From a virus: a DNA stretch of 29,537 bases. A program made the position numbers and the translations under genes. The stretch's first letter is position 1, and each line of letters starts with the position of its first letter. Shown one piece after another: positions 1 through 25,183 of the stretch. Where the stretch lies: positions 1 through 29,537 of IMG/VR virus record IMGVR_UViG_3300009164_000254. One strand, given 5' to 3'. Under the pieces are notes generated by a model. It had not been told where the DNA came from and ran no database searches. It saw only the letters and a program-made list of their open reading frames with translations.

Positions 1-933
1 GGCGGTGGAGACAACGCAATTTACCCTCACTGGAATATGCCAGAAGGTTCGACTACAACAGTTCGCTTCCTTCCAGACGCTGATCCAAACAATACTTTTT
101 TCTGGCTTGAGCGAGCAATGATCAAATTGCCTTTCGCCGGTGTTAAAGGTGAAACAAATTCCAAGCCTGTGACTGTACAAGTTCCATGTATGGAAATGTG
201 GGGAGAAACATGTCCAGTTCTAACTGAAGTGCGTCCATGGTTCAAAGACAAATCTTTGGAAGATATGGGTCGTAAGTACTGGAAAAAGAAATCTTATATT
301 TTCCAAGGGTTTGTTGGCGACAGCAAATTACAGGAAGATAAGACTCCTGAGAATCCAATTCGTCGATTTATCATCGGTAGCCAGATTTTTAACATTGTTA
401 AGAATGCACTGATGGACAGTGAAATTGAAGAATTGCCAACAGACTATGTTCGTGGTTTGGATTTCAAAATTGCTAAAACTAGCAAAGGTGGGTATGCTGA
501 CTACTCTACTAGTACTTGGGCTCGTCGTGAACGTGCTCTAAGCGAAGCAGAAAATGCGGCTATTGCACAATATGGTCTTCATGACCTAAAGAGCTTTTTA
601 CCTAAGAAGCCAGGTGAAGTTGAACTCAAAGTTATCAAAGAAATGTTTGAAGCGTCAGTCGATGGCGAAGCATTTGATATGGATCGTTGGGGTCAATATT
701 TCAAACCAGCCGGCATGGGCGGTAGCGGTCAAGCAACTGGTTCAACAACTACTCCAGCCGCTAAGGCAGCTCCTGCTGTTGTTGAAATCGATGACGAAGA
801 TGTTGCAATGGCAGAGAAGTCGTTCTCAGCACCTGCTCCAAAAGCAGAAGTTGCTACTGAATCAGCAGGTAGTGATGCTGGGGGTCGTGCCGCAGATATC
901 ATTGCAATGATTCGCAATCGTCAAAAGTCTTAA
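1..933 (+). CDS. 32: gp32-like single-stranded DNA-binding protein (5' truncated)
   Basis: The reading frame is open from base 1, so the N-terminus lies off the window; the ATG at 37 is probably internal. The T4 gp32 core is recognisable from a VRFLP strand, a CP-containing segment followed by RPWFKD, a GRKYWKKKSYIFQGFV strand, and an IGSQIFNIV helix region. The C-terminus is Ala/Thr/Pro-rich with an acidic patch (EIDDEDVAMAE), like the acidic tail of gp32 that contacts replication proteins, but it ends in a basic stretch (MIRNRQKS). gp32 coats ssDNA and coordinates polymerase, helicase loading and UvsX/UvsY. T4 gp32 binds zinc through His and three Cys including CPxC; here CPVL replaces CPxC, so the zinc site looks incomplete. 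uvsX follows 11 nt downstream behind a GGAG ribosome site. Confidence 0.85.
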   Translation, partial: GGGDNAIYPHWNMPEGSTTTVRFLPDADPNNTFFWLERAMIKLPFAGVKGETNSKPVTVQVPCMEMWGETCPVLTEVRPWFKDKSLEDMGRKYWKKKSYIFQGFVGDSKLQEDKTPENPIRRFIIGSQIFNIVKNALMDSEIEELPTDYVRGLDFKIAKTSKGGYADYSTSTWARRERALSEAENAAIAQYGLHDLKSFLPKKPGEVELKVIKEMFEASVDGEAFDMDRWGQYFKPAGMGGSGQATGSTTTPAAKAAPAVVEIDDEDVAMAEKSFSAPAPKAEVATESAGSDAGGRAADIIAMIRNRQKS

Positions 934-944
934 GGAGTTAGAGC

Positions 945-2003
945 ATGGGAAAATCCTTCGATATTTCGAAGTTCCGTAAATCTATCACTAAAAGTATTGA
1001 TGGACTAGGAATTGGGTTTAATGACCCGACAGACTGGATCTCAACCGGCAACTATGCTCTAAATTATCTTATCAGTGGGGACTTCTTTAAGGGAGTTCCC
1101 CTTGGTAAGGTGACAGTGTTTGCTGGAGAATCAGGTGCAGGCAAATCATATATTTGTTCTGGCAACATTATTAAATCAGCACAAGAACAAGGTATCTTTG
1201 TTGTCTTAGTTGACAGTGAAAATGCATTGGACAAGAAATGGCTAGAAGATCTCGGCGTTGATGTTTCAGAAGAAAAACTTTTGAAACTTAACATGGCTAT
1301 GATCGATGACGTGGCAAAAACTATTTCAGAGTTTATGAAAGAGTACAAGACAATGCCATTAGAAGAACGTCCAAAAGTGTTATTTGTTATTGACTCATTG
1401 GGCATGTTGTTAACTCCGACTGACGTTAATCAGTTTGAAGCAGGTGAAATGAAGGGCGATATGGGGCGTAAGCCTAAAGCACTAACATCACTTGTTCGCA
1501 ACTGTGTCAATATGTTTGGTAGTTATAACGTCGGTATGGTATGTACTAATCACACATACGCAAGCCAAGACATGTTTGATCCAGATGACAAGATTTCAGG
1601 TGGACAAGGCTTTGTCTATGCAAGTTCAATCGTTGTTGCCATGAAAAAACTCAAACTCAAAGAGGATGAGGATGGCAATAAGGTCACTGATGTGTTAGGT
1701 ATTCGTAGTGCATGCAAGATCATGAAAACTCGGTATGCTAAACCTTTCGAATCAGTCCAAGTTAAGATTCCGTATTCAACCGGTATGTCGCCGACCTCTG
1801 GCTTGGTTGACATGTTTGAGAAGATGAATGTATTATCTAAAGTAGGCAACAAACTTGCTTATACAGACAAAGAATCAGGTGAAATTGTTGCCGAGTTTCG
1901 TAAGAATTGGACAGAAGAAAAATTACAATTGATCATGCGTCAATGGGATTCAACTGCTGTACAAACAATTGCGACCGTAGAGGAAATGGCGGAGGAAGAA
2001 TAA
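945..2003 (+). CDS. uvsX: UvsX RecA-like recombinase
   Basis: This 352-residue protein has the length of T4-type UvsX. It carries a Walker A motif GESGAGKS at about residues 61-68 and a Walker B strand VLFVID at about 145-150. A SGGQGFVYASSIV segment fits the RecA-fold DNA-binding loop and core. UvsX forms filaments on ssDNA and drives strand exchange for recombination-dependent replication and repair, with gp32 and UvsY as partners. The start has a GGAG ribosome site in the gp32-uvsX gap. Its TAA overlaps the ATG of the next gene (TAATG), suggesting translational coupling. The C-terminus is acidic (EEMAEEE). Confidence 0.95.
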   Translation: MGKSFDISKFRKSITKSIDGLGIGFNDPTDWISTGNYALNYLISGDFFKGVPLGKVTVFAGESGAGKSYICSGNIIKSAQEQGIFVVLVDSENALDKKWLEDLGVDVSEEKLLKLNMAMIDDVAKTISEFMKEYKTMPLEERPKVLFVIDSLGMLLTPTDVNQFEAGEMKGDMGRKPKALTSLVRNCVNMFGSYNVGMVCTNHTYASQDMFDPDDKISGGQGFVYASSIVVAMKKLKLKEDEDGNKVTDVLGIRSACKIMKTRYAKPFESVQVKIPYSTGMSPTSGLVDMFEKMNVLSKVGNKLAYTDKESGEIVAEFRKNWTEEKLQLIMRQWDSTAVQTIATVEEMAEEE

Positions 2004-2253: not shown

Positions 2254-2709
2254 ATGTCCTGGTACGCTAAAGTCTCAAAAGATATAGCATATCTACCGAA
2301 TAGTTTAGATCATTTTTATAATGAGTTAGACGATGCCAAATTAGAAGTCAAGGTCCACGGTAATGTCGAAAAGGCATCCGCGGCCTTGCCTGGCATAGTT
2401 GAGCAACGATTTAATCAACTTCAAGAAATTGAAGCAATATTAGAATATCTCAACATTGAATTGCGTCGAATCAAATCAAAGGCGTTTAGAAAATATCTAG
2501 AAAACTATCAACGAGCGTTGAGCAGTCGAGATTGTGAAAAATACGTCGAAGGTGAAGCTGATGTAGTTGACATGGAAAAAATTATCAACGAATTTGCCAT
2601 GCTGAGAAATCAATGGCTGGGTATAATTAAGGCTCTTGATATCAAGCAATGGCAATTGAGCAATATTATTAAACTACGAGCAGCCGGCTTAGAAGATATC
2701 AGTTTATGA
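2254..2709 (+). CDS. UvsY-like recombination mediator (tentative)
   Basis: This is a 151-residue, mostly helical protein; T4 UvsY has 137 residues. The C-terminal half, with an EKYVEGEADV segment followed by a W-containing helix (NQWLGIIKALDIKQW) and a basic end, matches the layout of the UvsY C-terminal region (dispersed E/D-V segment, YWGILLDFCSGALDAIK, then a terminal helix). UvsY helps UvsX displace gp32 from ssDNA. In T4, uvsY lies next to uvsW, and here it lies between uvsX and uvsW, which supports the call. The similarity is low and judged by eye. It overlaps the next gene by 4 nt (ATGA). Confidence 0.5.
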   Translation: MSWYAKVSKDIAYLPNSLDHFYNELDDAKLEVKVHGNVEKASAALPGIVEQRFNQLQEIEAILEYLNIELRRIKSKAFRKYLENYQRALSSRDCEKYVEGEADVVDMEKIINEFAMLRNQWLGIIKALDIKQWQLSNIIKLRAAGLEDISL

Positions 2710-3887
2710 CCTTATATGTTGAAGATTTAATCATTGTATGTGCTAACATCAATGATATTTCTGCGTTTGATAATTCATTTATGACTAGTATGGTTGGGCA
2801 AATCTCACAAGGACAAAGTTTAACAGAAAAACAAGCAGGGTTAGCCTTAAAAATTCTAAAACGAAATCAGAAAAAACTCACAGTGAGCGTTATGGCGAAT
2901 GTAGAATCCGCCATTGATAATCCTGTGTTTAGATTTCCATTTCGAAAGATCATATCGATCAATAAAATCTCAATAGTACCCTATATGATATGGGGTAAGG
3001 CAATAAAAGTTGAATTTCCCTACAATCCGAGCTATATAGATTCTATAAGAGCCAGCCGCAAAGACAACCCGTTTATTGCATCTTGGGACAAAGACGAAAA
3101 GTCTTGGATGTTTGATTTAAGCGAAAGTTCTATTAAATTTATTGTCCAATTATTTGATAATGTTGAAGTAGAAATAGACGACGAATTTAAAAACTATGCA
3201 GAGCAAATAAAAAACGTAGTAGACAACATCGAGCAGTATGCACCTATGTTGGTTATAGAAAACAAAATGCCTGTATATAAGAATGTTGCAAAAGAAGTAC
3301 CAGTGTTGCAATCACAAGACATACTAGGATCATTGTTCGAGGCACGTAAATGCGGAATAACAACTTATGATACAAATATTGAAAGTTTTTTACAGGTTAA
3401 TAATTTAGATACAATAACAAAATCTTTTTTAACATCAGAAGATACATTATTTGTAGACAGTAAGCAACATGCATTCAGTGAGTTAAAAACTATTATTAAT
3501 TATTTGACACCCTGTCTGTTTGTTATTCCAGCTTCTAGAGAATTAGAGTCTGTGTCATTAGTTTATGAATTTTTAATGAGTCAAGGGTATGACAGTAGTG
3601 ATATTAGTATTATGTTTAGACTTCCTTCTATCAATCCCAGCGAATTTAATAATTTTGTAAAAGCGAAAAAATTAAATAATCCCATTTCTGAAAATACTAA
3701 ATTTGTGTTTATCTGTACAAAGGTACCAAAACCAATTTTTAAATCAAAGATACACTTTGAGTTGGTTATTAATTTGGGATATTTAAATGTGCATTACACT
3801 CTTAGAGAGTATATAAAAAGCTGTCAAAATGTTATATACTACTGTGATAAGAACCCTTCTAAAGATTTAAATTATGCCAACCTGTAA
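2706..3887 (+). CDS. HARP-like domain protein with degenerate helicase half, no Walker motifs
   Basis: This protein has 393 residues. An early LTEKQAGLALKILKR helix (about 39-53) resembles segments preceding HARP domains in phage helicases. Residues 98-150 (KVEFPYN, then WDKDEKSWMF, then a helix) match the HARP pattern of SMARCAL1-type annealing helicases: a hydrophobic strand, FPYN, a long helix, and a W-D-x-x-x-K-x-W strand. The C-terminal half has alternating strands and helices (LFVIPASRELESVSLVYEFL; FVFICTKV) like a RecA-type domain, but I see no P-loop or DExH box. It overlaps the UvsW gene by 14 nt. A fork-recognition partner for UvsW is an inference. Confidence 0.6.
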   Translation: MTLYVEDLIIVCANINDISAFDNSFMTSMVGQISQGQSLTEKQAGLALKILKRNQKKLTVSVMANVESAIDNPVFRFPFRKIISINKISIVPYMIWGKAIKVEFPYNPSYIDSIRASRKDNPFIASWDKDEKSWMFDLSESSIKFIVQLFDNVEVEIDDEFKNYAEQIKNVVDNIEQYAPMLVIENKMPVYKNVAKEVPVLQSQDILGSLFEARKCGITTYDTNIESFLQVNNLDTITKSFLTSEDTLFVDSKQHAFSELKTIINYLTPCLFVIPASRELESVSLVYEFLMSQGYDSSDISIMFRLPSINPSEFNNFVKAKKLNNPISENTKFVFICTKVPKPIFKSKIHFELVINLGYLNVHYTLREYIKSCQNVIYYCDKNPSKDLNYANL

Positions 3888-5337
3888 AGTGATCATCCGA
3901 GACGAAGTGAATGTTAAGATAGAAAATCTTGATCTCGACACACGTAAGGCCTTGGTTAAGAAATTTAAGTATGAAGACCCTACTGCTCGCTTTAGACCCA
4001 GCTATAAATTAGGTAGATGGGATGGTGCTGTTAGTTTCTTTGGACTCGGCGGAACTACCTATGTGAACATGTTGGAACCTGTACTGGCCGAATTGGAAGC
4101 AAGAAACTACTATATTGAAGTAGAAGACCTTCGACTTTCAGAACCCCTGGAATTTTCCCAAATTTCTGAGGATTTTTGGGGTGACCAATGCTGGCCCAAA
4201 GGTCATCGATTTGAAGGCCATCCAATTCGACTGCGTGACGATCAGGTGGAAGTGGTCAATAATTTTTTAAAGAACCCACAAAGTCTGCAAGAGGTAGCCA
4301 CTGGTGCTGGTAAGACCATTATGACTGCAACTTTGAGTAAAATTTGTGAAAAATACGGTCGAACCATAACCATAGTGCCGAACAAATCGTTGGTCGAGCA
4401 AACCGAAGAAGACTTTGTTAATGTAGGATTAGATGTAGGTGTGTACTACGGCGACCGAAAAGACCTTAATAAAACACACACCATCTGCACTTGGCAGAGT
4501 CTGAATATTTTAGACAAAAAATCCAAGAATTTTGGTGAAAATACCGACATTTTGACTCTGGCTGAATTCCTGGATGGAGTATCAACAGTCATTGTCGATG
4601 AGGTACATATGGCCAAGGCCGATGTCTTGAAAAACTTGTTAACACAGAATTTGAAAAACACACCAATCAGATGGGGACTCACTGGAACAGTACCAAAAGA
4701 AGACATAAATTTTCAAAATATTCGAGTTTCCTTGGGAGAAATTGTCGGCAGGGTTAGTGCTCACGATCTTCAACAAAAGGGAGTACTATCAAATTGTCAT
4801 GTTAATGTTGTGCAAACAGCAGAGTGGAAAGAGTTTAGTGGCTATGCTGAAGAATTAAAGTATCTAGTCACAGATGCTACTCGAGTTTCGTATGTGACTG
4901 AGTTAATTTCCACAATTTCTCAAAGTGGAAATACATTAGTATTAGTAGATAGAATTGAATGTGGGAAAATGATATCAGATGCATTAACTGACTGCGTTTT
5001 TATTTCAGGGTCGGTTAAAACCAAAGACAGAAAAGAAGAATATGACGAAATTAAAACAAGTGATAATAAGGTTATTGTGGCGACTTACGGTGTGGCCGCT
5101 GTGGGTATTAATATCCCTAGGATTTTTAATCTGGTTCTTGTGGAGCCCGGAAAGAGCTTTGTCCGCGTTATACAATCAATTGGGCGAGGTGTTAGAAAAG
5201 CGGAAGACAAGGACTTTGTACAAATTTGGGACATCACCGCAAGCACAAAATATGCCAAGAGGCACCTTACTGAAAGAAAGAGATTTTACAAAGAAGCAAA
5301 ATATCCGTTCACAATTGAAAAGGTCAAATATCAATAA
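3874..5337 (+). CDS. uvsW: UvsW-like superfamily 2 helicase
   Basis: At 487 residues it is close to T4 UvsW (about 500). The N-terminal domain has the UvsW-type RxSYKLGRWDG segment (about 41-51). Helicase motifs follow in order: motif I ATGAGKT (142-148), motif II DEVH (242-245), motif III LTGT (269-272) and motif VI QSIGRGVRK (434-442). UvsW remodels R-loops, D-loops and stalled forks and promotes the switch from origin- to recombination-dependent replication. It starts inside the preceding HARP-like gene (14-nt overlap), and its stop codon overlaps the ATG of the next gene. Confidence 0.93.
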   Translation: MPTCKVIIRDEVNVKIENLDLDTRKALVKKFKYEDPTARFRPSYKLGRWDGAVSFFGLGGTTYVNMLEPVLAELEARNYYIEVEDLRLSEPLEFSQISEDFWGDQCWPKGHRFEGHPIRLRDDQVEVVNNFLKNPQSLQEVATGAGKTIMTATLSKICEKYGRTITIVPNKSLVEQTEEDFVNVGLDVGVYYGDRKDLNKTHTICTWQSLNILDKKSKNFGENTDILTLAEFLDGVSTVIVDEVHMAKADVLKNLLTQNLKNTPIRWGLTGTVPKEDINFQNIRVSLGEIVGRVSAHDLQQKGVLSNCHVNVVQTAEWKEFSGYAEELKYLVTDATRVSYVTELISTISQSGNTLVLVDRIECGKMISDALTDCVFISGSVKTKDRKEEYDEIKTSDNKVIVATYGVAAVGINIPRIFNLVLVEPGKSFVRVIQSIGRGVRKAEDKDFVQIWDITASTKYAKRHLTERKRFYKEAKYPFTIEKVKYQ

Positions 5338-8720: not shown

Positions 8721-9076
8721 CACAATTAAACGGATTTGTAGAAAAAGGTTGGGGACACGAATTAATTTGGGCCACTAATGACAAGTATTGCGGTAAACTT
8801 TTAAAGTTTAATAAAGATGCTAGGTTCAGTATGCACTTCCATGCTGAGAAGGACGAGTCTTGGTACATACTAGATGGAAGATTCCTTATCAAATTTATTG
8901 AAACTAAAGATGCTAGTTTACATGAAGTAGAGCTTAAAGCCGGTGAGGTATGGCGCAATCGCCCACTTCAACCTCATCAAGTTATCTGTCTAGAAGAAGG
9001 CACTATCATCGAAGTTAGTACTCCTGACTCTGTAGAAGACAACTATCGTGTGGGCAGAGGCGACAGTCAAAAATGA
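8717..9076 (+). CDS. single-domain cupin (sugar-isomerase type)
   Basis: This is a 119-residue protein. Cupin motif 1 is complete: H40, H42, E47 and G54 in the H-x-H-x4-E-x6-G arrangement. Motif 2 supplies H87 in RPLQPHQV. The overall look (VEKGWGHELIW at the start) resembles the mannose-6-phosphate isomerase/guanylyltransferase C-terminal cupin. It directly precedes three ADP-heptose genes with a 4-nt overlap, so a sugar-phosphate substrate is likely, though no specific reaction can be claimed. Confidence 0.8.
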   Translation: MTQLNGFVEKGWGHELIWATNDKYCGKLLKFNKDARFSMHFHAEKDESWYILDGRFLIKFIETKDASLHEVELKAGEVWRNRPLQPHQVICLEEGTIIEVSTPDSVEDNYRVGRGDSQK

Positions 9077-9855
9077 AAATACTAATAACTGGCTATAAAG
9101 GATTTATCGGTCAGAATATGGTTGATGCTCTTAAAGACGACCACGAGCTATCTTACTTCGAGTGGGGCGACGAACTTCCTAGTTTTGAAGGATTAGATTG
9201 GTGTATTCATCTTGGTGCCATTAGTAGTACCAATGAAAAAAACGTAGAAAAAGTGATGCGTCAAAATTATGATTTTAGTTGCTCAATACTATCGTTGTGT
9301 CAGTGCTACGGAGTAAATTTGCAATACGCTAGTTCGGCAAGTGTATACGGAATGGTATCTTCTTTTTTAGAAGATTCTCCGCCTAGCCCGCAAAGTCCGT
9401 ATGCCTGGAGTAAGTATTTGTTTGACAGACATGTCAAGTCTCAAAAATTTAATAAAATAATTACACAAGGTTTTAGATATTTTAATGTATATGGTCCCCA
9501 CGAAGACCATAAAGATCAATCTAGCCCTCATCATAAATTTACTCAACAGGCAAAGACAACAGGCATAATTAAACTATTTGAAAAATCAGAGAATTACCAA
9601 AGAGATTTTGTTCCTGTAGAAACATTAATTGATATACATAAGAAATTTTTAAATATAAAAGAATCGGGTATATGGAATGTGGGCACTGGATATACTACAT
9701 CTTTTGAATCCGTTGCACGAGCAATCGCTAACAAATATAATGCTAGAGTAGAGTATATCCCCATGCCAGATGATATAAAAAATCAATATCAAAAATATAC
9801 CTGCGCCGATTTAACTAACCTAAATAGAGTATTAAATGAAAACAGTAATGGTTAA
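9073..9855 (+). CDS. ADP-L-glycero-D-manno-heptose 6-epimerase-like SDR enzyme
   Basis: This is a 260-residue short-chain dehydrogenase/epimerase. The NAD(P) motif TGYKGFIG lies at 6-13, with YASSASVYG at 85-93 and the catalytic YxxxK at Y110/K114. HldD-specific blocks are visible: HLGAISST, GFRYFNVYGP, LFEKSENYQRDFV and CADLTNL. HldD converts ADP-D-glycero-D-manno-heptose to the L-form used in LPS inner core. It lacks roughly 50 C-terminal residues relative to the about 310 of bacterial HldD, ending just after the ADLTNL block. It overlaps the next gene by 20 nt. Confidence 0.85.
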   Translation: MKILITGYKGFIGQNMVDALKDDHELSYFEWGDELPSFEGLDWCIHLGAISSTNEKNVEKVMRQNYDFSCSILSLCQCYGVNLQYASSASVYGMVSSFLEDSPPSPQSPYAWSKYLFDRHVKSQKFNKIITQGFRYFNVYGPHEDHKDQSSPHHKFTQQAKTTGIIKLFEKSENYQRDFVPVETLIDIHKKFLNIKESGIWNVGTGYTTSFESVARAIANKYNARVEYIPMPDDIKNQYQKYTCADLTNLNRVLNENSNG

Positions 9856-10237
9856 TGGCACGTTTGATATCTTGCACCCAGGACATGTTGCATTATTAAA
9901 CACCGCACGTAGCTACGGCGATCACCTTATTGTAGCTATTGACACCGATCGCCGTGTTCGAGAACTTAAAGGTGAACAACGTCCTATTAATAATCAAAAC
10001 GATCGCAGAATTATGCTGTCTAATCTTAAAGCAGTGGACATTGTGGAGTTATTTGATAGTAAAGAAGAACTAATTAGACTAATGGAACGATATCAACCAG
10101 ATATCTACGTTAAAGGCAGCGATTGGAAACACGACACAAAATCTACAGCACATCAGTATTGCAAAGAAGTAATTTATTATGACAGAATCGAAGAATACTC
10201 TAGCACACGAATCATTGAAAGTATTATTAATCGGTGA
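9836..10237 (+). CDS. heptose-1-phosphate adenylyltransferase-like protein
   Basis: This is a 133-residue nucleotidyltransferase of the cytidylyltransferase fold. NGTFDILHPGH (7-17) supplies the HxGH motif, and YSSTRII near the C-terminus is the second signature motif. It corresponds to the C-terminal half of bacterial HldE (RfaE2), or to stand-alone HldC, which makes ADP-heptose from heptose 1-phosphate and ATP. The LKGEQRPINNQNDR segment also fits RfaE2. Its context between an HldD-like and an HldA-like gene makes the heptose assignment stronger than glycerol-3-phosphate or FAD-type relatives. Confidence 0.85.
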   Translation: MKTVMVNGTFDILHPGHVALLNTARSYGDHLIVAIDTDRRVRELKGEQRPINNQNDRRIMLSNLKAVDIVELFDSKEELIRLMERYQPDIYVKGSDWKHDTKSTAHQYCKEVIYYDRIEEYSSTRIIESIINR

Positions 10238-10958
10238 TAGTTGCACCGATAGATATAATATTGGTACAGTAGATAGACTAAGCCCTGAGGCACCGGTGCC
10301 TGTAATAAAAGTTGTAGACAGCTATGATTTATCAGGCATGGCAGCCAATGTATACGACAACTTAACTAATTTAAATTGTTGGATAGCGTTTATAACTAAT
10401 AGAGAAAATATTGTTAAGACTCGATATATTGATTCTCGATCAGGGCAACATTTATTAAGAGTAGACGACGAACCTGTAATTGAACCGTGGGACGGCGACA
10501 TAGGAAGCCAACCTTGGGAAACCTACGATGCTGTGGTTATTTCAGATTACAATAAAGGTTTCTTGACATATCAACATATTGAGCAAGTTATACGCAACTT
10601 CCAAGGGCCGGTGTTTATCGACACAAAGAAAACTGATCTTCGAAGATTCCAAGGTGCTTATGTTAAGATTAATAGTTTGGAAAATAGTCTAGCAACATCT
10701 TTACCAGATGATCTAATTGTCACATTGGGCAAACACGGAGCGAGATATAAAAATCAAATCTACCCAGCACCGACAATTGAAGTTTCGGATGTGTGTGGGG
10801 CCGGAGATACTTTCCTATCTTCATTGACTTACCAATATCTATTGACAAAAGATATAGAAAAAGCTATAATGTTTGCTAACATTGCGGCAAGTCTTACAGT
10901 ACAGCACCGCGGTAATTACGCACCAACCTACGACGAGATTAGAATTGCCGGATATTGA
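10179..10958 (+). CDS. heptose-7-phosphate kinase-like PfkB protein
   Basis: This is up to 259 residues from ATG 10179, which overlaps the previous gene by 59 nt; a TTG at 10215 is an alternative start right at the kinase domain. LLIGDSCTDRYNIG followed by RLSPEAPVPV is the signature of the N-terminal kinase half of HldE (RfaE1/HldA). The PfkB motif VCGAGDTF near 205-212 keeps the catalytic Asp. It phosphorylates heptose 7-phosphate. It is shorter than the bacterial kinase domain (about 310), and SGMAANV replaces the usual PGGAANV. In bacteria the two halves are often fused in the opposite order. Confidence 0.82.
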   Translation: MTESKNTLAHESLKVLLIGDSCTDRYNIGTVDRLSPEAPVPVIKVVDSYDLSGMAANVYDNLTNLNCWIAFITNRENIVKTRYIDSRSGQHLLRVDDEPVIEPWDGDIGSQPWETYDAVVISDYNKGFLTYQHIEQVIRNFQGPVFIDTKKTDLRRFQGAYVKINSLENSLATSLPDDLIVTLGKHGARYKNQIYPAPTIEVSDVCGAGDTFLSSLTYQYLLTKDIEKAIMFANIAASLTVQHRGNYAPTYDEIRIAGY

Positions 10959-11514
10959 TTTAGATTTTTTGGATAGAACAAAAGCACTCGATATAATTAA
11001 GAATGTGCCTGCAACTATGGCTGGAGGCAAGCGTCATAACACAGGCGTATATTTTCAAAATATTCCAATTAACCCTCTAACTGGACAGGCTAGCATTGAA
11101 TATAAACAAGCAGAAGATAGAGGATACTTTAAGATTGATTTTTTAAATGTGTCTGCTTATCAAGGTGTTAGAGACGAAGCCCATCTTAATCAGTTAATAA
11201 CTACAGAGCCACTTTGGGATTTATTAGAACAGGATGAATTTACTGGCCTGTTGTTTCATGTTAATGGCCACGGCAGCATTTTACGTCAAATGAAACCTAA
11301 AAGTATATTAGAACTTGCCGCGGTTCTAGCTATGATACGTCCAGCAAAACGACATTTAATTGGCAAAAACTGGACAGAGGTTATGTCAGATGTTTGGGTT
11401 AAGCCCACATCAGATGAATATTTTTTTAAGAAAGCTCATGCGGTAGCCTATGCGCATGTAGTTGTAGTGCAGATGAATTTACTCTGCGAGCAGATTAGTT
11501 ATGAATATTCCTAG
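10945..11514 (+). CDS. miniature DnaE-like (Pol III alpha) protein
   Basis: I place the start at TTG 10945, with a GAG-type ribosome site and a 14-nt overlap with the kinase gene; a longer frame begins at TTG 10873. This gives 189 residues. Four blocks match bacterial DnaE in order: PDIDLDF at the N-terminus (DnaE PDFDIDF, two catalytic Asp), HNTGVYF (HAxGVV), YFKIDFLNV (VKFDFLGL, third catalytic Asp) and FFKKAHAVAYA (FxKSHAxAYA). The gap between the Asp pair and third Asp is about 60 residues, against about 150 in E. coli. The PHP and exonuclease-binding parts are absent. Whether it polymerises DNA is unknown. Confidence 0.7.
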   Translation: MPDIDLDFLDRTKALDIIKNVPATMAGGKRHNTGVYFQNIPINPLTGQASIEYKQAEDRGYFKIDFLNVSAYQGVRDEAHLNQLITTEPLWDLLEQDEFTGLLFHVNGHGSILRQMKPKSILELAAVLAMIRPAKRHLIGKNWTEVMSDVWVKPTSDEYFFKKAHAVAYAHVVVVQMNLLCEQISYEYS

Positions 11515-11878
11515 GATTTCTAACTAACTGTATCGATTTGCGTTTGATACGTTTTTCTGCTATTTCACTTAAATTTACCACTGGTCCAAAAACCAGCTCA
11601 ACATCTTTAGCATTAAAAGTTTTAATTGAGTATTTAAAAACTGACATTTCTTTTTTTAGAAAGATGTTGATAGGGATCTTACGATTACTTTCCCACCACC
11701 AAACTTCTCCCATTTCTAAAAGAATACGTTTTTCGTCATCACTTTTAATTGTTGCTATATCATAGATGCTGGCAATATAATTGTCAAAATTTATAATAAT
11801 TCCCACATACTCTACGTCATTTGATTTTACACAGGACACAAAGGGATGGTTATCTTGAAAGGTATTAGGGATTGACAT
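11495..11878 (-). CDS. small phage protein, unknown
   Basis: This encodes 127 residues from ATG 11878; an in-frame start at 11911 would run into the facing late gene and is less likely. The protein has beta-rich segments (VEYVGIIINFDNYIASIYDI, GEVWWWESNRKIPINIFL) and a basic C-terminus (AEKRIKRKSIQLVRNPR). It resembles a small binding domain, but I recognise no family. It runs convergently into the mini-DnaE-like gene with a 20-nt overlap. I see no clear ribosome site or late box for it. Confidence 0.65.
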   Translation of the reverse strand: MSIPNTFQDNHPFVSCVKSNDVEYVGIIINFDNYIASIYDIATIKSDDEKRILLEMGEVWWWESNRKIPINIFLKKEMSVFKYSIKTFNAKDVELVFGPVVNLSEIAEKRIKRKSIQLVRNPRNIHN

Positions 11879-11882
11879 TATC

Positions 11883-11890
11883 GATAAATA
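11883..11890 (+). promoter_or_regulatory. T4-type late promoter box GATAAATA
   Basis: GATAAATA differs from T4 TATAAATA at one base. It ends 5 nt before the ATG at 11896. In T4 the start site lies about 6 nt past the box, which would fall on that ATG and give a leaderless mRNA. Confidence 0.65.
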
Positions 11891-11895
11891 TAGGT

Positions 11896-12729
11896 ATGCA
11901 AAGTTTACCAATCTATTTATACCAAAATAATCTTGACGTAATATTAGATTTGGATTCTACTCTAAGGGGAGTTAATCAAGTCATGTATCAGCGCGATCTA
12001 AAAATTCAAAAAGGTATTAAAAATAAAGTTAGGGTGCAGTTTAAAAACAGCGACCAAAAACGTATACACATATCAAACACACAGACATTTGTTTTTTCTA
12101 TGTTCGATGCAATTAACCAACGATTGCTTATTGAAAAAAATCTAGAAGTATTAGAAGAAACTACCAGTACACGTGGGTTGGCCTTATTAACATTAAGTGA
12201 GAGCGATACTGCTGATTTGGATCGTAGCAGTTATCAATACACTATAAAAATATTAGATAGTGATGGATCTTACTTGCCTGTTTACTCTAACACCTATTAC
12301 GGTATGGCCGGAACATTGTATCTAAACAATGACACTGTTCCTGTACTACAACCTAGTCAAGAAGTTAGTGTGTTCCAGAAAAGCTACAATGCCCAAACAC
12401 AGTTGTGGGAGCATAAGAGCCGTGCTGTTCAGGCACATCCAGAGTTTAACGGCAATACAGCGTTGCATACTGTGGCAGTCTACCTAACCAACTATCGTGG
12501 AACAATAAGTTTCCAAGCTACCCTAAACAATACTCCAGACTATCTAGACAAGTTTGCCACATTAGAAACTAGAACATACAACGGTTTTACCGGCATTGAC
12601 TATGTTAATTTTAATGGCGTTTACTCTTATGTACAGGTCATGCATGTTCCAAATGTAGCACCTGGCGAATCACAAAACGACAATCCTAATTTCTTCGGTT
12701 CAGTTGACAAATTCCTCTACAGAAGTTAA
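11896..12729 (+). CDS. virion structural-type protein (tail/fibre accessory)
   Basis: This encodes 277 residues from the ATG just after a late promoter box; an in-frame TTG start upstream overlaps the facing gene. The protein is beta-rich with Asn/Thr/Tyr-rich loops. It begins with IYLYQNNLDVILDLDSTL and a basic FKNSDQKRIHIS strand, which looks like a baseplate- or fibre-attachment module. The end (NPNFFGSVDKFLYRS) is short and polar. There is no signal peptide. The late promoter and composition argue for a virion component; the precise part is not recognisable. Confidence 0.65.
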   Translation: MQSLPIYLYQNNLDVILDLDSTLRGVNQVMYQRDLKIQKGIKNKVRVQFKNSDQKRIHISNTQTFVFSMFDAINQRLLIEKNLEVLEETTSTRGLALLTLSESDTADLDRSSYQYTIKILDSDGSYLPVYSNTYYGMAGTLYLNNDTVPVLQPSQEVSVFQKSYNAQTQLWEHKSRAVQAHPEFNGNTALHTVAVYLTNYRGTISFQATLNNTPDYLDKFATLETRTYNGFTGIDYVNFNGVYSYVQVMHVPNVAPGESQNDNPNFFGSVDKFLYRS

Positions 12730-12738
12730 ACTTAGTAG

Positions 12739-13746
12739 ATGAACGAAATACAGACAGCAATACTAGCCCTCTTACCTGCTAATAGAAAAAATACTCCATC
12801 AGGTTGGACTAGTTTTAATGCTGTCTGTTGCCACCATAAGGGTGAGAAACGCGATGATCGCAAGCGTGGCGGCATTATGACCACCGGAGACGGGTTTACC
12901 TATCATTGCTTTAATTGTGGATTCAAAGCTGGATGGACTCCCGGTAAATTATTAAGTGTCAATACCAAACAGTTATTTCGTTGGGTGGGCATGTCAGAAA
13001 GCGATGTAGGAAAACTTGGGCTAGTTGCGCTACGATTGCAAGACGGGCGGGTAGATGTAAAGAAAGCCTTAAACTTTACACTAGAAGAAAAAGAATTGCC
13101 AGAGGGCAGTCTGCCGTTAATGGATTGGCTTGATGCTGAACTAACCGCAGATGAAGAACAAAAATTTGTAGAAGTTGTCGAATATGTACTCAGTAGGGGC
13201 ATGGAACTTGATTGGTATAATTGGATGTGGGCACCCACTGCGGGCTATGCAGATCGTGTCATTATTCCATTCTATCAAGATAGAAAAATCGTAGGTTATA
13301 CTGGTCGTAAGATAACATCAGGCAACCCTAAGTACCTAACGGATAGTCAAAGCGGATACGTATTCAATATTGATAGACAGCAAGACTGGAATAGAAAATA
13401 TGTTATTGTGGTAGAAGGGCAGTTTGATGCCATTGCCATAGACGGGGTTGCTATCATGACCAATGAAGCCAACGATACTCAAATTGCAAGGATCAACGCC
13501 CTCGGCAAAGATGTTATTATGGTCCCAGATAGAGACAATCCAGGAAGCAAGATGATTAAATCAGCACTGGCAAACAAATGGGCTGTTAGCATGCCACCTT
13601 GGGGTGACAACATTAAAGATGTAGCAGATGCAGTCAGGCAATATGGTCGATTGTATACCTTATTCACAATCCTGCACTATCAAGAAACAAACGAGATAAA
13701 AATACAACTACTTAAGAAAAAACTAGAAAAGATGCCACATGAATAA
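12739..13746 (+). CDS. 61: gp61-like DNA primase
   Basis: This is a 335-residue DnaG-type primase with the size of T4 gp61 (342). An N-terminal zinc-binding module uses a CCHH cluster (30-33) and CFNC (57-60). The TOPRIM domain has VVEGQFDA (224-231) and the acidic PDRD (263-266). gp61 makes the primers for lagging-strand synthesis and binds the gp41 helicase as the primosome. It overlaps the gp41 gene by 8 nt, so the two partners are co-translated. Confidence 0.92.
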   Translation: MNEIQTAILALLPANRKNTPSGWTSFNAVCCHHKGEKRDDRKRGGIMTTGDGFTYHCFNCGFKAGWTPGKLLSVNTKQLFRWVGMSESDVGKLGLVALRLQDGRVDVKKALNFTLEEKELPEGSLPLMDWLDAELTADEEQKFVEVVEYVLSRGMELDWYNWMWAPTAGYADRVIIPFYQDRKIVGYTGRKITSGNPKYLTDSQSGYVFNIDRQQDWNRKYVIVVEGQFDAIAIDGVAIMTNEANDTQIARINALGKDVIMVPDRDNPGSKMIKSALANKWAVSMPPWGDNIKDVADAVRQYGRLYTLFTILHYQETNEIKIQLLKKKLEKMPHE

Positions 13747-15211
13747 ACCAAATTACGACTACGAAGTTCAAAAACTATACATAGAAATGTTTTTGTCAGA
13801 TGCTGAGACATTTATTCGATGTCAAAACATTTTTGATCATGAAAACTTTGATCAAAGATTACAAACAGCCGCAGAGTTTATAACCAATTATGTAGACGAA
13901 TATAAGGTCATGCCCGAGGGACAGATTGTCAATGCTTCCTGTCGCACTGACTTTAACCCGGCACCCCTGCCTAAAGAGAACTACGATTGGCTCATGAATG
14001 AGTTTGAAAATTTTAGTAGACACAAAGGACTTGAGCGTGCTATTTTATCTAGTGCTGACTTGTTAGAAAAGGGAGACTACGGTCCAGTTGAAAAGCTGAT
14101 CAAGGATGCTATCCAGATCAGTTTAAACAAAGATATGGGTACAGATTACTTTGAAGATCCTAGAGCTCGACTAACCGCACTCAAAGATGGCAATGGTCAG
14201 ATTAGTACAGGATGGCCTAGTATTGATAAGAAACTTTATGGCGGATTTAATCGCGGTGAGTTGAATATCTTTTGTGCAGGTTCGGGTGGCGGTAAGTCAT
14301 TGTTCTTAGCCAACATGGGCGTAAACTGGGCACAGCAAGGACTTAATGTATTGTATCTAACTTTTGAACTTTCAGAGGGTTTGGTTAGTATGCGTTTAGA
14401 TTCTATGATGACAGGAATTACAACTCGTGAAATTTTTAGAAACATTGATGAAGTAGAATTAAAAGTCAAAATGTTGGGCAAGAAGGCAGGAAACCTACAA
14501 GTTAAGTATATGCCCTCAGGAAAAAATTGCAACGATATTCGAGCCTATTTAAAGGAATATCAGGTCAAAAAAGGCGTAAAACCAGACGTTATTTTAATAG
14601 ATTACCTCGATTTAATGATGCCTTTGTCAGTGAAGGTATCGCCCAGCGATTTGTTTGTTAAAGACAAATATGTATCAGAAGAGATTAGAAATTTGGCTAT
14701 GGAAACACAATGTATAACTGTGACAGCGTCACAATTAAACCGTTCAGCAGTCGAAGAAATTGAGTTTGATCACAGCCATATTTCGGGCGGATTATCAAAG
14801 ATTATGACAGCAGATAATGTCATTGGTATCTTTACTAGCCGTGCTATGAAGGAACGTGGTCGTTATCAAATCCAGTTTATGAAGACACGTTCAAGTAGTG
14901 GTGTTGGACAAAAAGTTGATCTAGAATTTAATGTAGATACTCTGCGTATTACAGATCTAGGTGAGGAAGAACAAGAAAGCAGTTTGGGTCAACAGCGCAG
15001 TCAGAACGGAGGTGGTTCAATTTACCAAGGGTTAAAAAGGACCAGCAGTGTGACTAGCACAGAAGAGACAGCAACAACTAGCACTACCTGGGAAAGAGCT
15101 AATCCTAAAGAAGGGTTTGATTTATCCAAGACAAAGACTAAAGCAGGCTCTGGGCCAATGATTCGCAATATGATGTCTACTATTGCTAACCTAAATCCTG
15201 AAAAAGATTAA
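13739..15211 (+). CDS. 41: gp41-like replicative DNA helicase (DnaB type)
   Basis: This is a 490-residue protein; T4 gp41 has 475. The N-terminal half is a helical DnaB-type domain. The motor domain has Walker A GSGGGKS (181-187) and Walker B VILIDYLDL (284-292), followed by an ITVTASQLNR segment and a GGLSKIMTADNVIGI stretch. It unwinds DNA 5' to 3' on the lagging strand. The C-terminal 90 residues are Ser/Thr/Gln-rich and look disordered, perhaps for contacts with gp61 or gp59-type loaders. The stop overlaps that of the convergent YqgE-like gene (TTAA). Confidence 0.93.
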   Translation: MNKPNYDYEVQKLYIEMFLSDAETFIRCQNIFDHENFDQRLQTAAEFITNYVDEYKVMPEGQIVNASCRTDFNPAPLPKENYDWLMNEFENFSRHKGLERAILSSADLLEKGDYGPVEKLIKDAIQISLNKDMGTDYFEDPRARLTALKDGNGQISTGWPSIDKKLYGGFNRGELNIFCAGSGGGKSLFLANMGVNWAQQGLNVLYLTFELSEGLVSMRLDSMMTGITTREIFRNIDEVELKVKMLGKKAGNLQVKYMPSGKNCNDIRAYLKEYQVKKGVKPDVILIDYLDLMMPLSVKVSPSDLFVKDKYVSEEIRNLAMETQCITVTASQLNRSAVEEIEFDHSHISGGLSKIMTADNVIGIFTSRAMKERGRYQIQFMKTRSSSGVGQKVDLEFNVDTLRITDLGEEEQESSLGQQRSQNGGGSIYQGLKRTSSVTSTEETATTSTTWERANPKEGFDLSKTKTKAGSGPMIRNMMSTIANLNPEKD

Positions 15212-15765
15212 AACCAATTGTTGACCTGTATTCGGGCACTGTGTTCCAGTACCGAATACCATTGGGTATCTTCCTCTTCGTCGAATACGTTTTCTATTGT
15301 CGACGGAGCAATTTCCCAACGATGCATAATATCTTTGGGTTTCTTGACGGATAGTTGTTTCTCTAGTATGCCGCCTTCCCACATCCAAATACCTGCGCAG
15401 GCTCTAAAATAGCCAGGTCCTTCACCGTTGCTGATAGCACTGAGTATGGAAATATCGTTAGTCACACCAATTTCTTTGTTGATCTTAATTGTACTCATAC
15501 CCTGCCAATCTAAGCTGTGTACCACATGTACTTTACCGGTGGCTACATTCCCCCCGTGATACATAGGATCGGCCCCTTCGTACCACATGCCTACGCCATG
15601 GGCAACATCTGATAGATCTATCTCTTTCATGCGATGATTGATCTGCACACCTACAGACATTTGATCAGTGTGACTTAATAATAGTATAACTCCGCCATAT
15701 AAGCTATCTCTGGGGTTTTTAGGGTTTGCTACCAGCAGTTGCCCTTGGTATTTCTTTTGTCTCAT
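15208..15765 (-). CDS. YqgE/AlgH family protein
   Basis: This is a 185-residue protein, the usual size of the YqgE/AlgH (UPF0301) family. GQLLVANPKNPRDSLYGGVILLLSH and SVGVQIN at the N-terminus, HGGNVATGKVHVVHS in the middle, and FRACAGIWMWEGGILEKQL near the C-terminus match the family's GxLLxAxP, GGP/VLHS and GYxxWxxGQLExE blocks in order. The biochemical role of the family is unsettled. A late box (ATTAAATA) stands 6 nt before its ATG, back to back with that of the nucleotidyltransferase gene. Late expression suggests a virion or assembly role, which is inference. Confidence 0.8.
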   Translation of the reverse strand: MRQKKYQGQLLVANPKNPRDSLYGGVILLLSHTDQMSVGVQINHRMKEIDLSDVAHGVGMWYEGADPMYHGGNVATGKVHVVHSLDWQGMSTIKINKEIGVTNDISILSAISNGEGPGYFRACAGIWMWEGGILEKQLSVKKPKDIMHRWEIAPSTIENVFDEEEDTQWYSVLEHSARIQVNNWF

Positions 15766-18707: not shown

Positions 18708-21305
18708 TTAATTTCCTAACTTAAACTGCTGATCAACCATTTCTTGATGTAGTCTGTCGCTACCCCTAGTTAACCCTCGCAACACTCGCTCATTGTCAAC
18801 TGTACGTTGATTCTTATAAACTTCTTTTGGCTCATAGAATGATGCATCTTTTAATATAAATGAATAAGCATTAAATCCAGTAGGTACGCTGGCTATTGAA
18901 GCAATATCAACGCTACCTGCTAGTTCATTTGGCAATACATTTCTATTGACTGCGCTAGTCTGAGATTGTATGTTTTCCTGCATCATTTCAAACTTCTGTT
19001 GCATCATCATTTCTGATAAAGGATTACCAGGTTTACCTATACCTCCAAAACTAGCCACCTGTACCTGCGGTGTTTCGACGTCCATGGCACGTTCTTGTAA
19101 TCGTGGTTGATATACCGGTGCAGATTGTGTAGGTGCTGGTGTCATACTAGACAAATTAATTGAACCTAAAGGATTATAGATAAATGGATTACGACCAATA
19201 GTCAACCCTGTACCACTGCTGGCCTGCTGTTGTGTCTCCACAGGCGCCGGAGGAGTAGGCTTTAACATAGTGACTGCGGTTGATTGTGTGTCTTGTTGCT
19301 GTACCGTTGCAGAATATGTCAATGAGTTAGTTTGAATAGGTTGCGTACTATTAACAGTTGGTTGTACCTGTTGTATTTCTTTTTGTAGGGGAGCAGGTGC
19401 TTGAACAAAATTTACAGACGATTGATTCTGTACCTGTTGTACTTCTTGCTGTGTTTGTTGAGTCTGTTGTACATATCTACCAGATTGTTGCTGTTGTGAG
19501 CCGGACTGCTGTTGTTGAGGACTTTGACTTGCTTGTACTAAGGATTGAACACTGGCCTGTGTTGACTGACTGGAAAACTGTGCGGCTGCTGTGGCACTAT
19601 TAGCACTCATATCTTGATTCATAGCAACTGCGGCATTACTTGTGGCAGTTGCACTTTGTACAGCATTGTCAAATGCCTTGGCGGCTTGTTGTACGGCCGC
19701 GGCCTGTACTGCTTGGTCTTTGGCCTGTGCTGATTTAACCACACTCATTGCTAGTTTACTAGGACCGCCGCCTCCACCACTACCGCCCTGTTGTGGTCCA
19801 GAACTCTGTTGTGGTGCACTGGCTGTTGCTGTCTGTGGAGGACCGCCAGCAGGTTGTGGACTTGTAGGTGCAGGGCCTGCTTGAGTTGGACTTGGCTGTG
19901 ACGGATTGTCTTGTGCTACACCAGGATTCTGATTTTGATCTTGCGCAGGACTTGGACTTGATTGAGCCTGTTGAGGTGAAGATTGTGCTTGGGCAGGACT
20001 AGATTGTGCCTGTGCAGGAGCTGCCTCAGCAGGTGACATTTGTGCTGTTGCCGGTGCAGGAGCTGCCGGAGCACTTGCACTAGCAACTGTTGATCCTAAT
20101 AACATATTTTTAGCATAAGCAACTGCATATCCAGAACAGGATGCATTGTATAAAGGATTAGTGACACACGGGTCAGCAGTATAAATTAACGTTGCTGAAA
20201 AATTACCTATAGATGATCCTGTACCCGATGTACTACCTGTTAAACTAAATCTACCTAATCCAGTTTGATTCAAACTGGTTGGCAACAAATACTTTCCACT
20301 AACCGATCCACTATCGCCATCTCCAGTCAATGCATAGCTCTTTGAAAATATTGTACCGGAATCGCTGCCAGTTAGTCGTGCAGTGGCATTTACCTGTGCA
20401 GGAATATTCATATACCAACTGCACGAACCGTCTTGATTAGTGGCTGTACATCCTGACCAGCTTTGACCAATGTTGTAATCAAATCCATAATTAATGCCGT
20501 GTACTGTGGCGCCAATGCCGCCATTTTTTAATGCTGTATTAATAGCCACTGATTGAGTTAGGGCATTTGACCATACACTAGAGTTGAAAACATTATTACC
20601 GGTTGTGACTGTATTAAATCCGGCACAACTAGGGCTGTAAGCAATATTGGTAGCACACGGATCAACACGATACTTTAAACTAAAACTGACATTATAAATT
20701 TCCGGGCCATATGGACCAACCCAAAAATTATTATCTCGACCAACAAACCCGACTTGTGCATTACTGTAGTTTGAAGCCGCTACGGGATTGGCAAATGTTT
20801 CACTGAAGTTAAAGTTAGTCCAGTTGTATTTTCTGTTTGTTTCATTTGTATAATCATACGTTGCGGCAACACCGCCGGCGGCATTGTAAAACTTAACGTA
20901 AGCACTTAGGTAATCCTGAGCTCCGTTGTCCCAACCATTACCATTTTTAGCACGAAATCCAAAATTGAATCCGCTGAGTTGTACACCGGCACCGCCTGCT
21001 TCCAGTGCTCGGTTTATATTGACAATTTGATTTAAGTCTGTAGTACCATAACTGAAATTTATTACACCGTAGCCGTTGGCATTGACTCGTGGCTGAGATC
21101 CACAATAGCCTGGGTCGCCACCACGCCAGCAGGTCAGTGATCCACCGAACTGTCCTACGTTATTCCAATTGCCGGTCGTGGTAGTGGGTGTGCCGGTAAA
21201 GTTTATCAAATTACCAGTAGTCGAATCTACCTGAGCATTACTTGAAAGCGTTATGAATGAGAACGCCAAGCAAAGCGCCAAAGCCAACTTTCTTATAAGT
21301 TTCAT
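18708..21305 (-). CDS. large secreted low-complexity protein with duplicated N-terminal module
   Basis: This is an 865-residue protein. The signal peptide (1-24, MKLIRK then a hydrophobic core, SSNAQ) predicts export. Two tandem modules of about 160 residues follow, each with IN-x-AL-x-x-GG (97-104 and 255-262), an aromatic GF/YGF strand, and an end DPC...SC/AGF (215 and 378). Residues 405-660 are Ala/Pro/Ser/Gln-rich low complexity. The last 100 are globular-looking (GFNAYSFILKDASFYEPKEVYK, then LRGLTRGSDRLHQEMV). Its start lies inside the preceding gene (68-nt overlap). It may be a secreted filament or surface protein; the function is unknown. Confidence 0.82.
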   Translation of the reverse strand: MKLIRKLALALCLAFSFITLSSNAQVDSTTGNLINFTGTPTTTTGNWNNVGQFGGSLTCWRGGDPGYCGSQPRVNANGYGVINFSYGTTDLNQIVNINRALEAGGAGVQLSGFNFGFRAKNGNGWDNGAQDYLSAYVKFYNAAGGVAATYDYTNETNRKYNWTNFNFSETFANPVAASNYSNAQVGFVGRDNNFWVGPYGPEIYNVSFSLKYRVDPCATNIAYSPSCAGFNTVTTGNNVFNSSVWSNALTQSVAINTALKNGGIGATVHGINYGFDYNIGQSWSGCTATNQDGSCSWYMNIPAQVNATARLTGSDSGTIFSKSYALTGDGDSGSVSGKYLLPTSLNQTGLGRFSLTGSTSGTGSSIGNFSATLIYTADPCVTNPLYNASCSGYAVAYAKNMLLGSTVASASAPAAPAPATAQMSPAEAAPAQAQSSPAQAQSSPQQAQSSPSPAQDQNQNPGVAQDNPSQPSPTQAGPAPTSPQPAGGPPQTATASAPQQSSGPQQGGSGGGGGPSKLAMSVVKSAQAKDQAVQAAAVQQAAKAFDNAVQSATATSNAAVAMNQDMSANSATAAAQFSSQSTQASVQSLVQASQSPQQQQSGSQQQQSGRYVQQTQQTQQEVQQVQNQSSVNFVQAPAPLQKEIQQVQPTVNSTQPIQTNSLTYSATVQQQDTQSTAVTMLKPTPPAPVETQQQASSGTGLTIGRNPFIYNPLGSINLSSMTPAPTQSAPVYQPRLQERAMDVETPQVQVASFGGIGKPGNPLSEMMMQQKFEMMQENIQSQTSAVNRNVLPNELAGSVDIASIASVPTGFNAYSFILKDASFYEPKEVYKNQRTVDNERVLRGLTRGSDRLHQEMVDQQFKLGN

Positions 21306-22746
21306 CTAGTTTTTCCTCTTCTACTTTTGGTAGTTTTTCTGGATTAGATTCCCATGCAGCCTTGGCCTGCTCGCCAATCTTACCTTCGTATGGACAAGGT
21401 GTGCCTGCTGCCAACATAGCATCAAATACCCTACGGTCTTGACACATAGTGGCCACAGCGGCAACTTTCATACCCATATCGTAGAGTGTTTTAGATAACT
21501 TTAATCGTTCACAATTCATATCACGTGTAGTGCTACCTGCCCCAACACCAAAGATCTGTGTTTGTACTGATCCGCTGGTGCCTGTTGAGCATAGGTCAGC
21601 ATTGCCACCACTCATCATAGCAGGAGCAACTGCTGTTGGAGGAGGTTGAATAACTTTTTGTGTTATAACAGTTTCATTGATATTTCTATTTGTCATTTCA
21701 CCGCTATTAATGTTTTGGTTAACGTTGGTATTAGCATTAGTGCTGGTACTAGAGTTGGTATTATTGTTGTTGTTAGTCATTGTACCCGTGTTGGTATTTT
21801 GATTAATGTTGGTCATTGTACCTGAATTAATATTGTTATTGGTATTTGTACTATTTGTTGTAGCCGTGGTATTGTTGATATTACGGTTGGTCATGTCACC
21901 AGTGTTAACATTGTTATTAGTGTTGGTACTTGTACTGGTATTGACATTGTTATTATTGTTGGTCATTGTACCATACTGATAGTTTGTGTTGGTACTGGTA
22001 GACGTATTAACGTTGTTATTGTTGTTGGTATTAACGCTGGTACTAGAGCTGGTACTGGCATTGTTGTTGTTATAGGTCATTGTACCACTGTTAACATTGT
22101 TGTTGTTATTGGTATTTGTGCTGGAACTAGTGCTGGTGTTAACGTTATTGTTGTTAAATGTCTGTGTACCACTATTGATGTTGTTATTAGTATTAACATT
22201 GGTACTGGCGCTAGTACTGGCATTGTTGTTGTTATAGGTCATTGTGCCTGTGTTAACATTATTATTAGTATTAACTGATGTACTGCTACTAGTACTGGTA
22301 TTAACATTGTTATTGTTGTTGGTCATTGTACCACTATTGACATTGTTGTTGTTGAATGTCTGTGTACCACTGTTAACATTGTTGTTGTTATTGGTATAGG
22401 TCACTGAGCCGCTCATAACATTGTTGTTGTTATTGTTGTTGGTCAAGGTGCCCGAATTAACATTGTTGTTGTTATTGGTATTAGTCGTGCCACCGGTCAA
22501 ATTGGTGTTGTTATTTGTGGTCACTGTACCCGAATTGACATTGTTGGTATTGATCGTACTAACACTGTTAGAGGTACTGTTGGTATCAACCAAGGATTTG
22601 CTGTCATAGCCCCCTTGATTGATCACTGTGGCAGTGCCTGTAGCGGTGCCACCACTGGATCCTGATGTACCTGTGGTAGTGGTCTGTGCCAGGGCCGCGC
22701 CAGATAACACCAAGGCAGCAACGACAGAGATAATTTTCTTGAACAT
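21238..22746 (-). CDS. secreted Asn-rich repeat protein
   Basis: This is a 502-residue protein with a signal peptide (1-20, MFKKIISVVAALVLSGAALA). Residues 58-357 are almost only N, T, S, V, G and M in short repeats such as NNNNVNSGTMT. The C-terminal 135 residues are globular, with four Cys (DLC, MNC, MCQD, TPCPYEG), an ERLKLSKTLYDMGMKVAAVATMC helix region and a final hydrophobic helix (GFGALLGVLI). It has an AGGAGGA ribosome site 4 nt before ATG. The repeat could form a beta-solenoid or amyloid-like fibre, or be disordered; the role is unknown. It heads the envelope operon. Confidence 0.82.
   Translation of the reverse strand: MFKKIISVVAALVLSGAALAQTTTTGTSGSSGGTATGTATVINQGGYDSKSLVDTNSTSNSVSTINTNNVNSGTVTTNNNTNLTGGTTNTNNNNNVNSGTLTNNNNNNNVMSGSVTYTNNNNNVNSGTQTFNNNNVNSGTMTNNNNNVNTSTSSSTSVNTNNNVNTGTMTYNNNNASTSASTNVNTNNNINSGTQTFNNNNVNTSTSSSTNTNNNNNVNSGTMTYNNNNASTSSSTSVNTNNNNNVNTSTSTNTNYQYGTMTNNNNNVNTSTSTNTNNNVNTGDMTNRNINNTTATTNSTNTNNNINSGTMTNINQNTNTGTMTNNNNNTNSSTSTNANTNVNQNINSGEMTNRNINETVITQKVIQPPPTAVAPAMMSGGNADLCSTGTSGSVQTQIFGVGAGSTTRDMNCERLKLSKTLYDMGMKVAAVATMCQDRRVFDAMLAAGTPCPYEGKIGEQAKAAWESNPEKLPKVEEEKLDETYKKVGFGALLGVLIHNAFK
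21676..22575 (-). repeat. degenerate AAC/AAT-rich coding repeat array
   Basis: This is the DNA of the Asn-rich region, approximate bounds. On the plus strand it reads as runs of GTT/ATT/TTG with recurring GTCATTGTACC-type blocks that mark SGTMT units. Unit lengths vary from about 10 to 25 codons, and codons are mixed rather than identical, so it is an old, selected coding repeat rather than recent slippage. Confidence 0.85.
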
Positions 22747-24928: not shown

Positions 24929-25183
24929 TCAGAGATTGACCTCAGTGTCTCGGGGATGGCCCTTGGCTTCTCTAAGATTCTGTGCCTCAACAAGGCATGC
25001 TTGTGCTTTGACCAGTAGCTGTTTGGCCTCGTTCATACCTGAGTTGAAGCCATCGTATCTACCCAAGGTGTCAGCGGCCCAGAACAAGGCTAGGAAGCAC
25101 CAGAACTCTGCTGTGGCTACGTGGAACCCTAGCACACTACATAGTGTGCCCAGGGTTGTGAACAGTGCTATGCGAGCCAGCAT
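24929..25183 (-). CDS. small membrane protein next to AAA+ ATPase
   Basis: This encodes 84 residues from the ATG that overlaps the ATPase stop codon (TAATG); an in-frame ATG at 25225 would add 14 residues (MDGYGTYYLYASYI) and overlap by 43 nt. One long or two short membrane helices (ARIALFTTLGTLCSVLGFHV, EFWCFLALFWAAD) precede a helical polar tail (MNEAKQLLVKAQACLVEAQNL). Translational coupling suggests that it works with the ATPase. No family is recognised. Confidence 0.65.
   Translation of the reverse strand: MLARIALFTTLGTLCSVLGFHVATAEFWCFLALFWAADTLGRYDGFNSGMNEAKQLLVKAQACLVEAQNLREAKGHPRDTEVNL

Follow-up and report, generated by a model that had tools for sequence, protein, structure and literature searches.

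The window analysed here, which is the whole of a virus record of 29,537 bases, contains a T4-like replication/recombination region (Table 1). Genes for an SSB, UvsX, UvsY and UvsW are followed by small genes, then by a run of separate sugar genes, and then by an open reading frame, herein called B. Inspection of the open reading frames of the window indicates that B encodes a stand-alone protein of 189 residues and begins with TTG. Past the helicase gene, the window holds a gene for an AlgH-like (DUF179) protein (15208-15765, minus strand; E 6e-20), two overlapping long open reading frames of 865 and 502 residues (18708-22746, minus strand) that matched nothing in Pfam and almost nothing in PHROG, and a gene for an AAA ATPase of unknown function that is only weakly related to clamp loaders (phrog_1250; 25183-26040, minus strand).

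Table 1. Gene B, its sequence motifs and its neighbours, with positions in the window
Feature	Position	Strand	Remarks
gp32-type SSB	37-933		
UvsX	945-2003		
UvsY	2254-2709		
UvsW	3874-5337		
Sugar run: epimerase, heptose adenylyltransferase, PfkB-type kinase	9073-10958		Separate genes directly upstream of B
Gene B	10945-11514	+	C-terminal half of split minimal Pol III alpha; phrog_11778
DIDLD	10951-10965	+	First two predicted catalytic Asp (D3, D5) and invariant D7; 72/72; model strand 4-7
HNTGVYF	11035-11055	+	Equivalent of the DnaE palm motif HAAGVVI; H31 and G34 invariant
KIDFL	11131-11145	+	K63 and third predicted catalytic Asp (D65); 72/72; model strand 63-67
IRPAK	11335-11349	+	Equivalent of DnaE (A)xRPGP, fingers base; R132, P133, K135 72/72
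FKKAHAVAYA	11425-11454	+	Equivalent of DnaE FNKSHAxxYA; H165, Y169 72/72
phrog_11637 gene, function unknown	11495-11911	-	Convergent with B, 20-base overlap of the B 3' end; E 7.6e-33
Virion structural protein-like gene	11872-12729	+	Kept between B and primase; phrog_14467
DNA primase (gp61-like)	12739-13746	+	phrog_47, E 1.9e-35
DnaB-like replicative helicase (gp41-like)	13739-15211	+	phrog_19, E 2.3e-73

The first-pass annotation of this DNA held that B is encoded after an ADP-heptose run rather than with primase and helicase, a view that the gene order contradicts. The primase and helicase genes lie just downstream of B, with one convergent gene and one structural-like gene between B and the primase. 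Moreover, a primase is found within 3.5 kb downstream of B in 62 of 64 homologous loci, whereas just 12 of 80 have a heptose kinase on the upstream side, and the sugar run as such occurs in a minority of relatives. XacN1 departs from the order of B before primase, with no primase annotated after B. The convergent gene, for which no Pfam match was found, keeps its position in 68 of 77 loci, even in very distant jumbo phages. Genes for DnaQ-type exonucleases also occur near B in RaK2 (L003:2721-3542), PBECO4 (L010:802-1620) and XacN1 (L008:8865-9458), and could be proofreading partners; no DnaQ-like exonuclease was recognised in the window at the place equivalent to that in RaK2 and PBECO4.

B aligns over nearly its full length with phrog_11778, a family annotated as DNA polymerase (E 2.4e-65; profile positions 8-194 of 197), and also matches the full-length phage Pol III family, phrog_405 (E 9.2e-7); a Pfam finger domain matched it below threshold. 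A search of solved structures with the single B sequence gave no match. The family profile, searched against the PDB, gave weak matches to Pol III alpha chains, in which the aligned blocks, including PDIDIDF, the third-Asp block, RPGP and FNKSHA, fell in the right order. The 189-residue frame contains the motifs PDIDLDF, HNTGVYF, YFKIDFLNV and FFKKAHAVAYA in the order in which they were first reported, and the homology to the DnaE core then proposed is upheld by the profiles, by the fold of the AlphaFold model and by the invariance of residues. Judged by these profiles, the likeness of B to Pol III is no chance resemblance. Relatives in phrog_11778 number dozens in jumbo phages and at least 168 in IMG/VR. 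One IMG/VR contig carries a B homologue split over two open frames (L068:5992-6567), through either a sequencing error or a real break. The position of the start codon is shared as well, homologues having ATG (62 cases) or TTG (5 cases) exactly at TTG 10945, and this TTG is a plausible start for B.

Among 72 complete, distinct homologues of B, which are 35-76% identical to the protein of the window, no variation was found at D3, D5, D7, H31, G34, K63 or D65, nor at R132, P133, K135, H165 or Y169. The count was made on an HMM-based extraction, and a motif-based extraction gave the same result. The three catalytic-type aspartates noticed earlier correspond to D3, D5 and D65, and their conservation, which had been set beforehand as a check on the proposal, is complete in all 72. 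The median pairwise dN/dS of B is about 0.11 (29 pairs), and the gene is under purifying selection.

Several parts of Pol III alpha are reduced in B or missing from it. In M. smegmatis DnaE1 (chain 5lew), the second and third aspartates (D417 and D581) are 164 residues apart, and Arg-Pro and His 120 residues apart; the corresponding intervals of B are 60 and 33. What is lost from the first of these intervals corresponds to the thumb, and what is lost from the second to most of the fingers. The shortening between the aspartates reported earlier is therefore real, and the reported loss of the PHP domain, most of the fingers and the tail domains was likewise confirmed, there being neither a PHP nor a tail domain in B and no PHP match in a Pfam search. 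The domains with which Pol III alpha binds the clamp and tau are also absent. Finally, the B chain, whose sequence starts at PDIDxDF, contains no GS/GRGS motif.

That motif, which the first-pass annotation overlooked, is carried by proteins of phrog_11127, encoded elsewhere in related genomes. This second stand-alone Pol III fragment, herein called A, has about 175 residues (~170-183) in ten annotated jumbo phages (RaK2, PBECO4, Munch, PA5oct, Atu_ph07, Phosso, SCTP-2, XacN1, CM1 and Vibrio 2.275), and is annotated as "DNA polymerase III alpha subunit" in 121Q, GAP32 and CBB. It matches Pfam DNA_pol3_alpha above the cut-off (E 5e-12), covering only the GRGS-bearing stretch of the model (positions ~16-96; one of the ten reaches 125, through a stop); the match with this E value spans model positions 21-95 and runs up to the FLN end. 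G-x-GRGS is invariant in 50 sequences of A. The A profile aligned with residues 285-393 of E. coli Pol III, the last block being FLN. A terminates at the equivalent of FERFLN (EFLx-stop), and the next Pol III block, PDIDxDF, opens B, a few residues after its start (up to ~15 in the RaK2 group). Because A ends at one block and B opens at the next, the two are, by sequence, complementary pieces of the Pol III core, cut in the middle of the palm. No natural fusion was seen, as no open reading frame in any fetched locus matched both halves. We also considered a DnaE joined by an intein and rejected it: the end of A and the start of B abut the Pol III blocks, A stopping at EFLx and B opening within a few residues of DIDxD, so there is no space for intein halves.

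A was present in 59 of the 60 listed phage records that carry B; the lone exception, PP728206, has 109 kb as against ~350 kb for its relatives. A, B and a family B DNA polymerase occurred together in all ten phages checked. The distance from A to B is 15-224 kb in the ten annotated phages and reaches ~280 kb in IMG/VR contigs, and in RaK2, Munch, Atu_ph07 and Phosso the A gene lies near that for the clamp loader. When viral contigs were searched with a single A protein, no match was found; a search with an alignment of A found hundreds. Several IMG/VR contigs of 111-462 kb carry both halves, and others, which may be fragments, carry only one.

AlphaFold models, built from the sequences of the window and IMG/VR, were of high confidence for both proteins (pLDDT 92 for A and 89 for B). 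The best solved-structure matches of both models in Foldseek were to Pol III alpha, with modest E values (2.7e-3 for A and 3.7e-3 for B); for B, the best 12 solved matches were Pol III alpha or entries titled DNA polymerase, with a best probability of 0.98. A match to DnaE, by profile or by structure, had been called for earlier, and both kinds were obtained, with Pol III alpha chains as the matches. The predicted palm of B has the Pol III fold. D3/D5 and D65 lie at two predicted strands (4-7 and 63-67), as in the palm, their positions being taken from strand assignment. In the A model, residues 1 to ~85 fold confidently (pLDDT ~90) without aligning to Pol III in sequence (L130:6001-6534, L092-L101), and this N-terminal half is possibly a separate, phage-specific domain.

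B is probably a subunit of a Pol III-type nucleotidyltransferase that has two parts and would act on phage DNA. Homology suggests that B is the metal-binding, template-side half of a family C (Pol beta-like) nucleotidyltransferase, divided in jumbo phages between two proteins, and that A would supply the triphosphate site, since GRGS is, in Pol III, the motif that grips the incoming nucleotide by its triphosphate. We infer that A and B associate, most likely non-covalently, and that their association would bring GRGS together with the two-metal triad D3/D5/D65, K63, RPxK and FKKxHAxxY of B; the pair would then add nucleotides to DNA at the phage fork, beside the family B replicase. Having neither a thumb nor clamp-binding, OB or tail domains, and little of the fingers, the A-B enzyme alone would be expected to have weak processivity, and a short-patch role, such as primer extension or hand-off beside the primase-helicase, gap filling or repair, appears likelier than bulk synthesis. 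Against this main reading, ordinary template-directed extension is doubtful for an enzyme so reduced in thumb and fingers. A more specific version, in which the reconstituted pair would be a Pol III-type enzyme without a thumb that has a task of its own beside the family B replicase, such as the elongation of primase products ahead of hand-off, is put forward only tentatively, and we regard it as rather unlikely. If it holds, the phage would have a two-polymerase fork of a eukaryote-like kind, and the A-B enzyme may resemble an early bacterial replicase.

The same losses can be read differently. Since no more than the palm and some of the fingers base is retained, and a family B polymerase is already present in these phages, A and B might be a nucleotidyltransferase that is not a template-directed polymerase, one that adds to ends or modifies nucleic acid or protein on a Pol III palm. 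We consider this improbable, though worth keeping in mind: the RPxK and FKKxHAxxY motifs on the template and nucleotide side are invariant, and the genes sit with primase, helicase and clamp loader. Less probable still is a reading in which the pair is catalytically dead and serves as a structural or regulatory component of the phage replisome, or else acts as a decoy that draws off some replication protein of the host. A stand-alone fragment with large deletions, beside a full family B polymerase, would suit such a role, and the first-pass annotation had named both a degenerate polymerase and a decoy. On the contrary, the triad and the nucleotide-site residues are all invariant among proteins that are 35-76% identical to that of the window, which is unexpected for a relic that only binds, and B does not have the clamp- and tau-binding domains of Pol III alpha. 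The invariant residues of B and A, together with the low dN/dS, argue for a working catalytic site and not for a relic or decoy.

The lineage of the window itself bears on whether B needs A. The nearest relatives of its B (mostly 61-76% identical) are on uncultured contigs of up to 153.7 kb, and neither A nor a clamp loader nor PolB was found on the 29.5-kb window or on twelve related contigs of that size range, so that no A can be attributed to the lineage. One might suppose that B here dispenses with A, or pairs with another protein, perhaps one of the host; we judge this very unlikely. The contigs that lack A also lack PolB and the clamp loader, which is the neighbour of A elsewhere, and they look like fragments without the A region; wherever near-complete genomes exist, A and B are found together. 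On the simplest reading, the part of the genome that would bear A lies off these contigs. That B is a pseudogene, an assembly break or a gene fragment, as its unusual TTG start and its correspondence to only part of a known protein might suggest, can be rejected with near certainty, given that dozens of independent genomes carry it with the same length and ends, and given its dN/dS and the TTG of five homologues.

Iyer et al. (2021; PMC7824862) described, on the basis of sequence, a minimal Pol III in two pieces from the "group 2.2" jumbo phages, whose genomes also encode a family B polymerase; the kind is therefore already published, and B of the window is a further example. The suggestion of an unrecognised enzyme in the first-pass annotation is accordingly out of date, as that study described this protein as the C-terminal half of the split enzyme. 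Only the A half was noticed in the earlier papers on CBB, where it was termed truncated (PMC5259590), and Atu_ph07 (PMC6102473). In a search of mostly open-access literature, no bench test of a split phage Pol III was found. Added here are the exact split point, the invariance of the whole active site, the near-complete co-occurrence of A and B, the conserved placement by primase and helicase, and a broad uncultured lineage with B.

The replicases of bacteria are unrelated to those of archaea and eukaryotes. These phages nonetheless retain, under strong selection, polymerases of both kinds, one of family B and the other a minimal, split enzyme of the bacterial type. The job of the minimal enzyme would reveal how little Pol III catalysis needs, and if two unrelated polymerases can share one fork.

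Compared with known systems, B is closest to the C-terminal unit of the group 2.2 split Pol III (phrog_11778), with which it shares a stand-alone length of ~190-215 residues, the motifs, the order with primase and helicase, and 35-76% identity. It differs in belonging to an uncultured lineage, in having MPDIDIDF at the extreme N terminus and in that its partner is unseen on the available contig. The partner family, phrog_11127, is the complementary half of the same core and co-occurs with B; unlike B, it has GRGS and ends before the catalytic aspartates, and it is usually the only half annotated as a polymerase. With DnaE (Pol C family), B shares PDIDxDF, HxxG, KxDFL, RP and FxKxHAxxY in the same order, but it has no PHP domain, no GS motif and no thumb, little of the fingers, and none of the clamp-binding, OB and tail parts, and the core is divided between two chains. 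The cyanobacterial DnaE is likewise encoded by two genes, with its halves joined by an intein; in A and B, however, there is no intein-like extension, the split point is another one, and both halves are minimal.
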